A stretch of 64,000 nt of DNA, taken from contig JAUFSD010000006.1 of the NCBI GenBank assembly GCA_033030425.1, positions 1,612,001 through 1,676,000 of the forward strand, given 5' to 3'. Under the pieces are notes generated by a model that saw only the letters and a program-made list of their open reading frames with translations, made no database searches and was not told the origin of the DNA. This document shows, piece after piece, positions 52,690 to 59,878 of this stretch. The stretch's first letter is position 1. Each line of letters begins with the position of its first letter. Source of the stretch: Verpa conica. Its lineage: Eukaryota > Ascomycota > Pezizomycetes > Pezizales > Morchellaceae. The translations under genes were made by a program, and so were the position numbers.

Positions 52690-54307
<1,618 letters not shown>

Positions 54308-55744: not shown

Positions 55745-57003
55745 ATGTCCGATACCGAAGGTGACTCAACCTCCGACTCGGGCGACTTCTCCTCACCCCC
55801 CACCTCCATAAACCCCTACACAGTCCTCTGCATCCCGTCAACCTCCACCGCCTCCGAGATCCGCTCTGCCTACCGCCGTCTCGCTCTCCAAACCCACCCC
55901 GACAAAGTCGCCCCCACCGAGCGCGACGCAGCACACACTAAATTCCAAGAGCTCGCCTTCGCCTACGCCGTTCTCAGCGACGAAGCTCGGCGCGCACGCT
56001 ACGATGCTACCGGGAGCACTAGTGAGAGTCTGTTCGAAGAGGGGTTCAATTGGAGGGATTTCTTCAGGTCACAGGTCAAGGATCTTGTGAGTCCTGAAGC
56101 TGTAGAGAAATTCAAGAGGGAGTATCAGGGTTTGTTGTTTCTCCCTCTCTTGCGGTTACATTGAATTAATAGATTATGGGTATAGGATCGGATGAGGAGC
56201 GAGCGGCGGTTTTACAAGCGTATACGGACTCTGCGGGATCTTTAGATGTGGTTTTTGAACGTGTTATGGTCTCGAGTGTCCTTGATGATGAGGACCGTTT
56301 TAGGACTATGATTCAGGAAGCTATTGACGCTGGTGAGGTGGAAGGCTACAAGGCATTCACTAAAGAGAGCGCGAAATCGAAAAAGGCACGACGGGCTAAA
56401 GCTGAGGGGGAGAAGAAGGAAGCTGAGGAATATGCAAAGGAGTTGGGAGTGTGGGATGTATTGTTTGGGGAGAAAAAGAAGCGGAAAGAGGAGCAAGAAG
56501 CTGCACAAGCAGAGACAGACACAGAGATGCAGGATGCCGAGGAAGATGAAGAGGAGGAGGAGGAGGAAGAAGAGAAACCTCCAAAGGTGAGTGGAAAAGG
56601 GAAAGGCAAGGGCAGAACGGCGAAAAAGGTTGAGCCGAGGGTTAAACCAGTTGCAGAGAGGAAGAAGACGAAGAAGGAGGACGATACATCTGCTCTCGAA
56701 GCACTGATCAAGGGCCGACAAGCAAACCGACAAGCTGGCTTTTTGGCAGGCTTAGAGGCTAAATATGGCGCCAACGGAAGCAAAGTCAAGAAGGAGAAGC
56801 AAAGCAAAAAGGGCCGAGGCAAGAAATCTAAAGATGAGAGTGAGGTGGAGGAGGAGGAGGAGGAAGAGGAAGATACAGTAGAACCCACAGAGGAGGAGTT
56901 TCAAGCTGCCAAGAAAAGGGTTGAAAGCCGAGCTGCGAAGAGAACTGGCGAGGTGGTCGGGAATGGTCGAGAGAGGCGGTCTAAGAGGGCTAAAAGATCG
57001 TAG
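55745..57003 (+). CDS. DNAJC9-like J-domain protein
   Basis: Two exons, 55745-56129 and 56186-57003, join CAGG to GATCGG in phase for 400 residues. After a short acidic start the J domain occupies residues ~23-90 ('NPYTVLCIPSTSTASEIRSA', HPD in 'LALQTHPDKVAPTERDAAH', 'ELAFAYAVLSDEARRARYD'). It is followed by 'GFNWRDFFRSQVKDLVSPEA' and 'AVLQAYTDSAGSLDVVFERV', a three-helix region typical of DNAJC9, a nuclear Hsp70 co-chaperone for histones H3-H4. The rest is charged: acidic runs (EEDEEEEEEEEE, ESEVEEEEEEEED) and lysine-rich blocks, ending in a bipartite-looking nuclear signal (NGRERRSKRAKRS). Histone chaperoning here is inferred from family. Confidence 0.9.
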
Positions 57004-57350
57004 TAGTACTACTAGAGGGATAGAAAAAAGGGTTATGGTTCATGATGTCATGGGCGCTGTATTTTTAGGATATATCTTTGTCTCAGTTACTGGGAGGGTT
57101 TCTTCTTGCGGTCAGGGTTATTACTTTCATGGTAGCATATGGGTATTCACTAGCGATTGATTTATCATGCTTAGGAAATAAAAATTTGAAGAATTTGTAT
57201 TATTATGTCTAACAATAGTGCTTTGAGCACCGCCTCTTTCATCCATTCTAAATAGAAATATTGTTGGGTAGGGTATATATCTGTGATTCCATGTTAGAAC
57301 TATTATTTCTCAAGTATGTGTAGAAAACGACATGATTGAAAATAACAAAT

Positions 57351-57477
57351 GGAACATAAAATATCAGGCTACGGCCCCGGTCAAAGGGCGATTTCATCAA
57401 TACCCCCACGTATGGCGGGGGGCGTATGAAGACCGTCGTGAGATTGTAGAAGGAGTATCATCATGGTAAGATGTTCC
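57351..57477 (-). ncRNA. snR73: Box C/D snoRNA, snR73-type (25S C2959)
   Basis: C box ATGATGA (57458-57464), D box CTGA (57364-57367) and a perfect 7-bp closing stem GGAACAT/ATGTTCC (57471-57477 with 57351-57357). The internal guide is antisense to 14 bases of 25S rRNA, AGACCGTCGTGAGA (window 57430-57443). Counting five bases upstream of the D' position gives the first C of GACCG, which by my count is yeast C2959, the snR73 site. The D' box is degenerate (CATA). A C'-like TTGATGA lies at ~57393. The second guide, before the D box, has no target I recognise. Confidence 0.85.
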
Positions 57478-57637
57478 TAAGGGGAAGAAACGGAGTAAAG
57501 GAAATAGAAGCGACTAACCTTTAGAGGAAATTGAGGCGTGGGGAGATACAGGGTCTGCTGGTAGCTAGATTCTAAAGTTTGTTAGCTTCTGGGAAGCGAA
57601 AATATTAAGAGATTGATGAGGTAAAAGCGGGCAGAAG

Positions 57638-57722
57638 TCAGACATTCCAAGTTCTCGTCTTCTGCAAGGATGCTACTCCCGCTCGGACATATGCTTGTCT
57701 TTTGTAAAGGAAATCTCATCAT
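57638..57722 (-). ncRNA. snR74: Box C/D snoRNA, snR74-type (18S A28)
   Basis: C box ATGATGA (57716-57722), D box CTGA (57638-57641), D' box CCGA (57683-57686). The guide before D' is antisense to 13 bases of the 18S 5' end, CATATGCTTGTCT (window 57688-57700). The fifth base upstream of D' pairs with A28 (CATA), the yeast snR74 site. No clear external stem was found. Intronic, between exons 5 and 6 of the host. Confidence 0.85.
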
Positions 57723-57900
57723 ATGGATTTAAGCAGGGCAAGGGTTAGGAGGGGAGAATGTCTTACAGTTTAGGTAAGCGCTGGGTGCGAGTGTTTTAGT
57801 TTTGGCCAGTCAGGGCGCTGTACTAGAAATCTGTAAGAACAGTTAGCACAGAGCTAATAACATGCATTTTTTATATTTAAGTGGGGCAGAATGAGGATCA

Positions 57901-57989
57901 TCAGATATTGCATGAATGGTTATTAAAAGTTTGTCTCGTCATTGGCAAAATGCCAGATAGGACTCGTCATCTAAAGTGGATATCATCAT
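57901..57989 (-). ncRNA. snR75: Box C/D snoRNA, snR75-type (25S G2288)
   Basis: C box ATGATGA (57983-57989), D box CTGA (57901-57904). The internal guide is antisense to 12 bases of 25S, CTCGTCATCTAA (window 57963-57974). With a degenerate D' box CCTA (57958-57961) the fifth base pairs with the G of CTCG, which counts as G2288, the yeast snR75 site. The second guide has 10-base complementarity to GCATGAATGG, just downstream on the same rRNA stretch, and may stabilise binding. An overlapping plus-strand frame of 83 codons is not a gene. Confidence 0.82.
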
Positions 57990-58143
57990 TGAAGAGGGAT
58001 AAGGAATATAAGAAAATAAGAATTAAATTACTTTTTCTCAAGCTCTATCAGGCACTGGAAAATTCTCCTGAACTAGTGACAGTAAACCTGTCAGCACCAG
58101 CAAAGTTCTTCCGTGGTAAAGCAGCTGGATAAACGAAGACAAA

Positions 58144-58263
58144 GTGCGGCCGAAAGTATGTCAGGGCGGCAGGGTTTCTGAGGCCCATGCCAAAATTGCG
58201 TCTCGATCATTGGATTTCAGAGACCAGTGCTCTTGTGCAAATCATCATTTAAGATGGCCGCAC
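58144..58263 (-). ncRNA. snR76: Box C/D snoRNA, snR76-type (25S C2197)
   Basis: C box ATGATGA (58242-58248), D' box CTGA (58217-58220), C' box TGATCGA (58203-58209), D box CTGA (58161-58164). An 8-bp perfect closing stem GTGCGGCC/GGCCGCAC pairs 58256-58263 with 58144-58151. The D' guide is antisense to 25S CCAGTGCTCT (window 58224-58233), and the fifth base falls on the C before AGTG, counted as C2197, the yeast snR76 site. This is the only one of the internal guides here with a canonical D' box. Confidence 0.87.
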
Positions 58264-58401
58264 ACATGATGTCCTGTGGTAGTGAAAGCAGAGTGATCTA
58301 ACCTTTGTAGAGCTTTCCATGGTGGATCTTAAGTAACAAATGTTAGCATGTTACGAGGAAATTGAAATGATATGAAGAATTCTTGAGAAGTGATTAGGGT
58401 G

Positions 58402-58495
58402 AAAGCTCAGAAATAGCCATTTGATTTCCGCAACGCACCGAAGTACTTGGACGGTAATTTCCAGCGTATATGTTGTCAAATTGTTCATCTTTGCG
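58402..58495 (-). ncRNA. snR77: Box C/D snoRNA, snR77-type (18S U578)
   Basis: C-like box AGATGA (58485-58490, imperfect), D box CTGA (58407-58410), short AAAG/CTTT closing stem. The internal guide is antisense to the 530-loop of 18S, CGGTAATT (window 58452-58459), and continues with CCAGC after one bulged base. The fifth base before a degenerate D' (CCAA, 58447-58450) pairs with the U of GCGGU, yeast U578, the snR77 site. The C box is weaker than in the others, so this call rests mainly on the guide and on its place in the cluster. Confidence 0.75.
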
Positions 58496-58729
58496 ATCTG
58501 GGACAGGGAGGGGCAAGGTGTAACGATAGTGGGTTTTTTGGACAGGGGGACAGGGGTGGAATGCATACCATGAAATTTTTATTGGTTTACTTTGAGTATG
58601 ATTAGTGTTATTTGACAAAAGTCTCAAATACATCCGCAGTACAAGTCCTAGGAGACATTGAAATCCTGAAAAACAACTCAGTTAGCAGAGAACTAAGAGA
58701 TTTTCAAAAGACAGTAAATTCATAGTAAA

Positions 58730-58835
58730 GGTTTCAATATCAGCCTGACGTGCAAAGTAGTTTCACACCTCAACCCTTTGGGAAGAAGTCAAAGACTCTA
58801 GTTATGCGGTTGTACAAATCATCACCAAAGAAACC
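58730..58835 (-). ncRNA. snR78: Box C/D snoRNA, snR78-type (25S U2421), double guide
   Basis: C box GTGATGA (58819-58825), D box CTGA (58740-58743), 6-bp closing stem GGTTTC/GAAACC (58830-58835 with 58730-58735). The D' guide is antisense to 25S GACTCTAGTT; with D' box TTGA the fifth base pairs with the U of GACU, counted as U2421, the yeast snR78 site. The D guide is antisense to 12 bases of another 25S site, CTGACGTGCAAA (window 58745-58756), where the rule selects the A of CTGA. I know of no yeast methylation at that A. The peptide that can be read across this snoRNA is not coding. Confidence 0.82.
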
Positions 58836-58939
58836 ATTGGTGGAAGAAGAGGTAGGAGACATTTGAGAGAGAGAAAATTGCATACCTAGACATTAAAAAT
58901 TGTCGCGTTGTGGTCGACGTGTGCTGTTGACGGTAAACA

Positions 58940-59878
58940 AATGATGAGGATGAATAGATGTGGTGGGGGAACAGAGAAAAATTTCATTTGTAGCACGCAT
59001 CACGCTTTTTTTGGCCGCCTTGGCGTCCACTTAGCAGCGGGACTGGTTAATCCTAACCCTTAACCCCCCACCCTCAGCCCTAGTCATCCTCCGTTCCTCG
59101 TTCTGTTTCCCCGGCTAAATGGGGGAAGAATACCCCCGGAACATCTTCGCATCATAATTACAAGCTTTGGAACACAACAACCAAACAATTGGTCTCCAAC
59201 CTCGGTCTATCAACATTATTCCGGTAGCGGGCAATCCCGGAAGATACCGGCTGGTACATTTATCTCACCTTACCGGTTTGTCGCGAAGGGTCGGAGGTCC
59301 GGGGGAAGAAGGGGGCATCCCAATCCACGGATTCGGGGGAAAGGCGGGGCGTTTTTGGCGGGGCCAGTCGTTGGTCCTCTGCTGTGATCACGGGTCTCTC
59401 AGTTCCCCATCTCATCCCATGCAAATGTCACGAGCCCCCTTCCTGCCTGCTAAGCAGATCTGCAAGTACTAATCGCATAAAAATTGATCCACAACAAAGG
59501 GAGGAAGGGTCAAAGAAAAAGAAAGGATGTGAGCTGCGGCTAACAGCGGAAATGCTGGAGAGCAGGATGGATGGCATCGTGTGCCCAATTCCCTATGCAG
59601 TATGCTCACATCGTGGGTAGAGCTCGGTAGTCGCAGCAATTCGGGACGAGGGGAAGGAAGCTTTCCCTGTGCCTTCCCTAGTCCCGAGCTTATTTAAATA
59701 GCTCACAGTAATTCAAACTCGCTTTATACAGTAGTATAACTAGTCCACTGCCCTCTCAACGTCTTCCTTGGCCCAGCATTCCACAGTTGTTCACTATCAC
59801 CGATATACAAACAAGCCTTCTTCTTCCTGCTGCTATTACCATTTCGTATTCCCACTATAAATACAGAACTGTATCAAA
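58940..59878. other. FBP1 promoter and 5' UTR region
   Basis: No gene seen. It holds GC-rich patches with GGGG/CCCC runs (59040-59110, 59285-59365), which could include stress-response type sites, then a TATTTAAATAG box at ~59690-59701 and a pyrimidine-rich leader before the FBP1 start. Confidence 0.5.

Follow-up and report, generated by a model that had tools for sequence, protein, structure and literature searches.

A predicted intronic snoRNA cluster I with a fused snR78/72 double guide in Verpa conica

Six box C/D snoRNAs follow one another on the minus strand of a Verpa conica contig (58885-57281), one per predicted GT-AG intron of a single host RNA, in the order of the snR78/72, snR77, snR76, snR75, snR74, and snR73 homologues. 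We are highly confident that this locus represents fungal snoRNA cluster I in the form typical of Pezizomycotina, that is, a noncoding host with six introns, each of which carries one C/D snoRNA. Two lines of evidence lead to this reading: first, the boxes, closing stems, guides, two Rfam matches above the gathering cutoff, and six GT-AG introns; and second, the publication of the same set for N. crassa, T. rubrum, and Euascomycetes. The host transcript of the cluster would be spliced, after which each intron lariat would be debranched and then trimmed to the C/D core. Debranching and trimming are the route of intronic C/D snoRNAs in general. The resulting snoRNPs would guide 2'-O-methylation of U2421, A876, C2197, G2288, and C2959 in 25S rRNA and of U578 and A28 in 18S rRNA (yeast numbering). 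Transcription, splicing, trimming, and methylation at this locus most likely proceed as for the homologues.

The window, meaning the whole stretch of DNA that was analyzed, comprises 64,000 nucleotides of contig JAUFSD010000006.1 (NCBI GenBank assembly GCA_033030425.1; positions 1,612,001 to 1,676,000 of the forward strand), and all positions given here are counted within it.

TABLE 1 Modeled host RNA, snoRNAs, guides, and the convergent gene, ordered along the minus strand
Feature	Position	Strand	Description
Host exon 1	58886..58980	-	only the 3' end at 58886 is predicted (5' splice site GTATGC); 5' limit arbitrary
Intron 1	58666..58885	-	220 nt; GTATGC...TGCTAAC...TTTCAG
snoRNA 1, snR78/72 double guide	58730..58835	-	C box 58825; D box 58743; 6-bp stem GGTTTC/GAAACC
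snR78 D' guide, snoRNA 1	58794..58803	-	10 bp to 25S 2418-2427, site U2421; D' box TTGA
snR72-type D guide, snoRNA 1	58756-58745	-	TTTGCACGTCAG; 12 bp to 25S 873-884, site A876
Host exon 2	58569..58665	-	97 nt; splice-site model
Intron 2	58328..58568	-	241 nt; GTATGC...TGCTAAC...CTTAAG
snoRNA 2, snR77 homologue	58405..58496	-	C box 58491; D box 58410; Rfam Afu_300, above gathering
Guide, snoRNA 2	58459-58452	-	AATTACCG; pairs with 18S 575-582, site U578
Host exon 3	58303..58327	-	25 nt; splice-site model
Intron 3	58068..58302	-	235 nt; GTTAGA...TGCTGAC...GTTCAG
snoRNA 3, snR76 homologue	58144..58263	-	C box 58248; D box 58164; guide 58233-58224 to 25S 2196-2205, site C2197; exact D' CTGA; 8-bp stem
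Host exon 4	58032..58067	-	36 nt; 3' limit depends on the choice of GTAATT at 58031 as 5' splice site
Intron 4	57831..58031	-	201 nt; GTAATT...TGCTAAC...TTACAG
snoRNA 4, snR75 homologue	57899..57991	-	C box 57989; D box 57904; Rfam snR75; guide 57974-57963 to 25S 2285-2296, site G2288
Host exon 5	57767..57830	-	64 nt; splice-site model
Intron 5	57572..57766	-	195 nt; GTAAGA...AGCTAAC...CTTTAG
snoRNA 5, snR74/U27 homologue	57637..57727	-	limits approximate; C box 57722; D box 57641; guide 57700-57688, 13 bp to 18S 25-37, site A28; D' CCGA
Host exon 6	57519..57571	-	53 nt; splice-site model
Intron 6	57281..57518	-	238 nt; GTTAGT...TTCTAAC...TCACAG
snoRNA 6, snR73/U35 homologue	57351..57477	-	C box 57464; D box 57367; guide 57443-57430, 14 bp to 25S 2956-2969, site C2959; 7-bp stem
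Last host exon	57010..57280	-	3' limit set arbitrarily; borders on the convergent DnaJ gene, which ends at 57003
DnaJ-C9-like gene	55745-57003	+	apparent intron; convergent to the cluster

Boxes, closing stems, and Rfam models

The motifs, guides, gene order, and splice signals of the cluster are present in the DNA as described here. All six units have an exact CTGA D box (positions are the starts in Table 1), and five have an exact RTGATGA C box; unit 2 has AAGATGA, with one mismatch. Closing stems of 6, 8, and 7 bp bracket units 1, 3, and 6, respectively. For comparison, pure Watson-Crick stems of at least 6, 7, and 8 bp were found at 88, 25, and 10 of 3000 random minus-strand places. The stems of units 2, 4, and 5 (snR77, snR75, and snR74) span just 3 to 4 bp, which we count against our reading. 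A preliminary description, made from the letters of the window, had reported six minus-strand C/D units with exactly these box counts and three perfect stems of 6 to 8 bp, and it proved accurate on both.

Two units are recognized by Rfam models at full length: unit 2 by Afu_300 (RF01509; 62.9 bits, E value of 4.5e-11, gathering cutoff of 40) and unit 4 by snR75 (RF01185; 62.6 bits, gathering cutoff of 40). Scores of three other units fell below gathering, namely, unit 3 with Afu_513 (32.3 bits versus 48) and snR76 (21.7 versus 55), unit 5 with SNORD27 (22.5 bits versus 52), and unit 6 with snoZ161_228 (22.7 bits versus 45); the homology that we propose for these units is claimed on guide, order, and boxes and not on Rfam models. 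For unit 1, an Rfam search up to an E value of 10 returned no snoRNA match, a second point against our reading. With two of six genes found at the gathering level and most scoring below the cutoffs, members of such a cluster can be missed by routine annotation.

Guides to seven yeast methylation sites

Guides were sought against yeast 25S and 18S rRNA sequences that were reconstructed for this analysis and stand in for the rRNA of Verpa conica. Two contig collections of viral and prokaryotic sequence had no match to eukaryotic 25S patterns or to a pattern of the two snR75 elements, which is uninformative for fungi. As a check, the reconstructed sequences have lengths of exactly 3396 and 1800 and carry the listed base at 55 of 56 methylation sites (37/38 and 18/18); the sole mismatching site had been labeled G1437 in our list, and PMC5199042 gives C1437. 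The yeast guide-to-site table in that paper agrees with the assignments used here (U2421, snR78; U578, snR77; C2197, snR76; G2288, snR75; A28, snR74; C2959, snR73; A876, snR72). Against this yeast reference, seven guides in the cluster address seven yeast sites with the methylated base at position 5. Matches of 8 to 14 bases had been claimed at six of these sites, and all six were recovered, with contiguous antisense pairing over 10 (U2421), 8 (U578), 10 (C2197), 12 (G2288), 13 (A28), and 14 (C2959) bases. Read by their targets, the snoRNAs stand in the yeast gene order from snR78 to snR73, again as described before, and all on one strand, which is the order by which cluster I is recognized.

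An exact D or D' box accompanies two of the seven guides (snR76 and the A876 guide); two have a D' box with one mismatch (TTGA in snR78 and CCGA in snR74), and three have one with two mismatches (CCTA in snR75, CATA in snR73, and, by eye, CCAA in snR77). The five-base rule counts as fully independent evidence only next to a recognizable D' or D box, so the degenerate D' boxes confirm their sites less independently.

We compared matches at 56 yeast 2'-O-methyl sites between the region and 300 dinucleotide shuffles of it. Matches of at least 10 bases cover six sites in the region (A876 included, U578 excluded), whereas the shuffles averaged 0.32 such sites and never exceeded 3. At the other thresholds, the region and the shuffles gave 4 versus a mean of 0.03 (maximum, 1) for at least 12 bases, 6 versus 1.31 (maximum, 6) for at least 9 bases, and 14 sites versus 5.05 (maximum, 11) for at least 8 bases. 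Among equal-sized other pieces of the window on both strands, without the minus-strand pieces that overlap the region, 22 of 84 had at least one match of at least 10 bases, and the most per piece was 3. The 8-base U578 match taken alone is not significant, and its mere eight contiguous pairs count against our reading; the identity of unit 2 rests on its Afu_300 match. When a guide of at least 10 bases had to be preceded by a C box within 60 nt and followed by a CTGA at most 70 nt beyond the expected D' box, five cases emerged from both strands of the 64 kb, all of them in the cluster; four further rows in the 64 kb paired a C box with a guide and had no CTGA in range (matches without a C box were left out).

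One might suppose that the cluster has decayed or fallen silent and that its working counterparts lie elsewhere in the genome, given that some D' boxes are degenerate, that three closing stems are missing, and that our search for copies covered the 64-kb window. Such decay is hard to reconcile with D boxes that are exact in 6/6 units and C boxes in 5/6, with the presence of all seven guides, and with two full-length Rfam matches above 60 bits, and we regard it as extremely improbable.

Second rRNA pairings

Two units have a further complementarity to rRNA close to their target. In the snR75 homologue, a second match of 10 bases (57919-57910, minus strand) to 25S 2307-2316 starts 11 nt past the guide duplex on the rRNA, and in the snR77 homologue, a second match of 9 bases (58463-58471, minus strand) to 18S 594-602 starts 12 nt past it. 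We tested all seven guides for extra pairing within 70 nt of yeast rRNA to either side and ran 300 single-base shuffles per guide. Pairings as long as those observed arose in 2/300 shuffles for snR75 and 6/300 for snR77; extra pairings of the other five guides spanned 5 to 7 bases and were reached by 97 to 300 of the 300 shuffles. The second elements of snR75 and snR77 are also found in the Rfam consensus sequences and are therefore probably conserved helper pairings. Helper pairings of this kind were reportedly treated by van Nues et al. in 2011. Within the available text of the yeast CLASH paper (PMC6171561), nothing on such extra pairing was found.

On its D side, the snR77 homologue has an element (58407-58425, minus strand) that is close to the Afu_300 consensus and has no 9-base match in yeast rRNA. 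The corresponding second guide of the N. crassa snR77 homologue has been assigned to A62 of U5 snRNA (PMC2780460).

A fused snR78/72 double guide

In addition to its snR78 guide, unit 1 carries an snR72-type guide to A876 that is absent from the preliminary description. This guide lies one base from the D box, and an extra G-U pair between the guide and the CTGA puts A876 at position 5. Because unit 1 pairs at both U2421 and A876, we take it to be a fused snR78/72 double guide, and the cluster thus reaches every target of the snR78-snR72 set; the extent from snR78 to snR73 given earlier stands for its six targets but stops short of this seventh. Unit 1 corresponds to the snR78/72 unit of PMC3596301 and to CD5 of N. 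crassa.

No other match of at least 10 bases covers A876 in the 64-kb window. We also looked for an snR72 gene outside unit 1: the only other A876 complement of at least 9 bases in the window is a 9-mer on the minus strand (61979-61971; 25S 868-876), which was rejected as an snR72 guide because it ends at A876, whereas a guide would extend past it.

Introns and the host RNA

From the splice signals, we infer that each snoRNA would sit in its own spliced intron. The modeled introns are 195 to 241 nt long, with the C box 42 to 77 nt from the 5' splice site, and in all six units a CTRAC branch-like site lies 56 to 70 nt past the D box and is followed by an AG 10 to 23 nt further on. Formulated as a test, with distance limits that were set after seeing the data, this combination of branch-like site and AG is passed by 6/6 units versus 4/193 other CTGA occurrences on the same strand, and by 1528/63800 positions as background. 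The earlier proposal of one snoRNA per intron thus holds at the level of the sequence, with splice and branch-like signals in 6/6 units, and the junctions that it predicted (58886 to 58665 and 58569 to 58327) coincide with those of our model. The last intron reaches 57281, past the end of the region then outlined (57351..58835). The longest ORF in the modeled spliced host RNA of 641 nt, both ends of which are arbitrary, has 39 codons, and the host is therefore probably noncoding.

The same snoRNAs could be real and yet derive from a polycistron that is unspliced, as in Saccharomyces, or has its own promoter, with the splice-like motifs arising by chance. Splicing of this cluster is predicted here from sequence signals, and its 5' splice sites are not uniform (GTATGC in two introns, then GTTAGA, GTAATT, GTAAGA, and GTTAGT). 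Chance, however, would have to supply a 5' splice site, a branch-like site, and an AG at the distances given above in 6/6 units, and the branch test separates these units from other CTGA occurrences. Moreover, the clusters of Euascomycetes are reported to be all intronic (PMC3596301), and those of N. crassa were checked by RT-PCR (PMC2780460). We consider an unspliced origin very unlikely and retain the reading of six introns with one snoRNA each.

Comparison with known clusters

Cluster I was defined as snR78-77-76-75-74-73-72 by Luo et al. 2013 (PMC3596301), who describe it as intronic in the Euascomycetes studied and as unspliced in S. cerevisiae and its close relatives, with the switch put down to decay of splice signals, for which they cite Mitrovich et al. 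2010. A recombined snR78/72 intron is reported there for all Euascomycetes studied and for Yarrowia. The Verpa conica locus agrees with the Euascomycete form in its order from snR78 to snR73, in the predicted intronic position of each snoRNA, and in the snR72 guide inside the snR78 unit; it differs from that sampling in adding a Pezizomycetes genus, a class to which we assign none of the genera in the species list given there. Over three clusters, 323/460 snoRNAs were predicted to be intronic in that study, and EST or RT-PCR evidence confirmed 83/323 introns, a proportion that we count against our reading.

In N. crassa, six snoRNAs with these targets are intronic on chromosome VI, and one of them is a double guide that serves both the snR72 and the snR78 site (PMC2780460, Table 1); judging from that table, the members of cluster I would be CD5, CD24, CD12, CD7, CD21, and CD31. 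Hosts of the N. crassa clusters are UHG-like, with ORFs of only 159 to 267 bp, and RT-PCR was used to check how their transcripts are spliced (Liu et al. 2009, PMC2780460). The Verpa conica cluster shares the six snoRNAs, their targets, their intronic placement as modeled here, and a UHG-like host without a long ORF, and it differs in sequence and in that alternative splicing of cluster I was shown for N. crassa.

Sequenced cDNAs of T. rubrum (TRnc_4259 to TRnc_4264), all on one supercontig, represent U52/snR78, snR77, snR76, snR75, snR74, and snR73 (PMC3890542), the same homologue set and order as here. They differ in being listed as 5'UTR or intergenic rather than as parts of one intron-bearing host, with the first about 1.8 kb from the second. 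The predicted targets of the snR74 and snR73 homologues in T. rubrum are not the yeast sites, which again counts against our reading. The SNR72-SNR78 polycistron of S. cerevisiae has the same snoRNA set, order, and rRNA sites (PMC3596301, PMC5199042); its primary transcript is unspliced (PMC3596301), and its snR72 and snR78 genes are separate (PMC2780460).

The novelty implied in the preliminary description does not survive this comparison, in that both the intronic cluster I and its change to an unspliced polycistron in Saccharomyces are already in print (PMC3596301). The retention of gene order despite a switch in expression mode is already established. The cluster clearly exemplifies two things, a gene whose product is its introns rather than its exons and a gene order that survives a change in how the genes are expressed, and both points have been made in the literature (PMC3596301). 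The present locus is a well-preserved further example of a described arrangement and not a discovery.

Age of the cluster and of the fusion

Pezizomycetes are one of the earliest branches of Pezizomycotina. The presence of the cluster in this early-branching class suggests that the fusion and the intron layout already existed in the ancestor of Pezizomycotina. We think it fairly likely, with much less assurance than for the identity of the locus, that the last common ancestor of Pezizomycotina had the cluster with one snoRNA per intron and a fused snR78/72 guide and that the second pairings of snR75 and snR77 are extra docking contacts. An added lineage with the full set and the fused guide would push the fusion toward the base of Pezizomycotina, and the event would then be earlier than the species sampling in PMC3596301 shows for this group. 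Since the fusion is also reported in Yarrowia (PMC3596301), it may be older still or may have arisen twice. A literature search for Tuber melanosporum and Pezizomycetes found neither term among the results listed, a weak indication that the literature lacks such a case.

The convergent DnaJ-C9-like gene groups with Pezizomycetes: among the 120 matches listed of 880, the best nine named ones come from Pyronema, Rhizina, Wilcoxina, Choiromyces, Trichophaea, and four Tuber species. A midpoint-rooted tree without an outgroup was built from 33 rows, namely, the gene from the window and 32 rows selected from the listed matches. In it, the gene from the window groups with 11 rows (nine from genera that we place in Pezizomycetes and two metagenome proteins) with support of 90/73, below the level at which groups were starred. 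The smallest larger set that is starred has 13 rows (98/96), the same 12 plus Orbilia, and the remaining 20 rows, all named Pezizomycotina, form the other group.

Neighboring elements

A further C/D candidate on the minus strand (54049-54149) matches Rfam Afu_190 at 40.5 bits (cutoff, 35). Its 11-nt guide (54133-54123) is directed at G562 of yeast 18S rRNA. The candidate may be intronic; about 400 nt downstream of it is a reading frame for an AAA ATPase (53004-53612; Pfam AAA), which by eye resembles a proteasome ATPase. CD43 of N. crassa guides 18S G559 and is on the same chromosome as the six cluster snoRNAs listed in PMC2780460; its G559 is probably the equivalent of the G562 site.

A 13-nt complement on the minus strand (55154-55142) to 25S 2943-2955 (A2946/C2948, the snR71/69 sites) was dropped as a further snoRNA and is probably due to chance, because the 60 nt upstream contain no C box and Rfam gives no match at the gathering level. 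Upstream of the cluster and on the opposite strand lies an exon of a fructose-1,6-bisphosphatase (Pfam PF00316; 60354-60749, plus strand).
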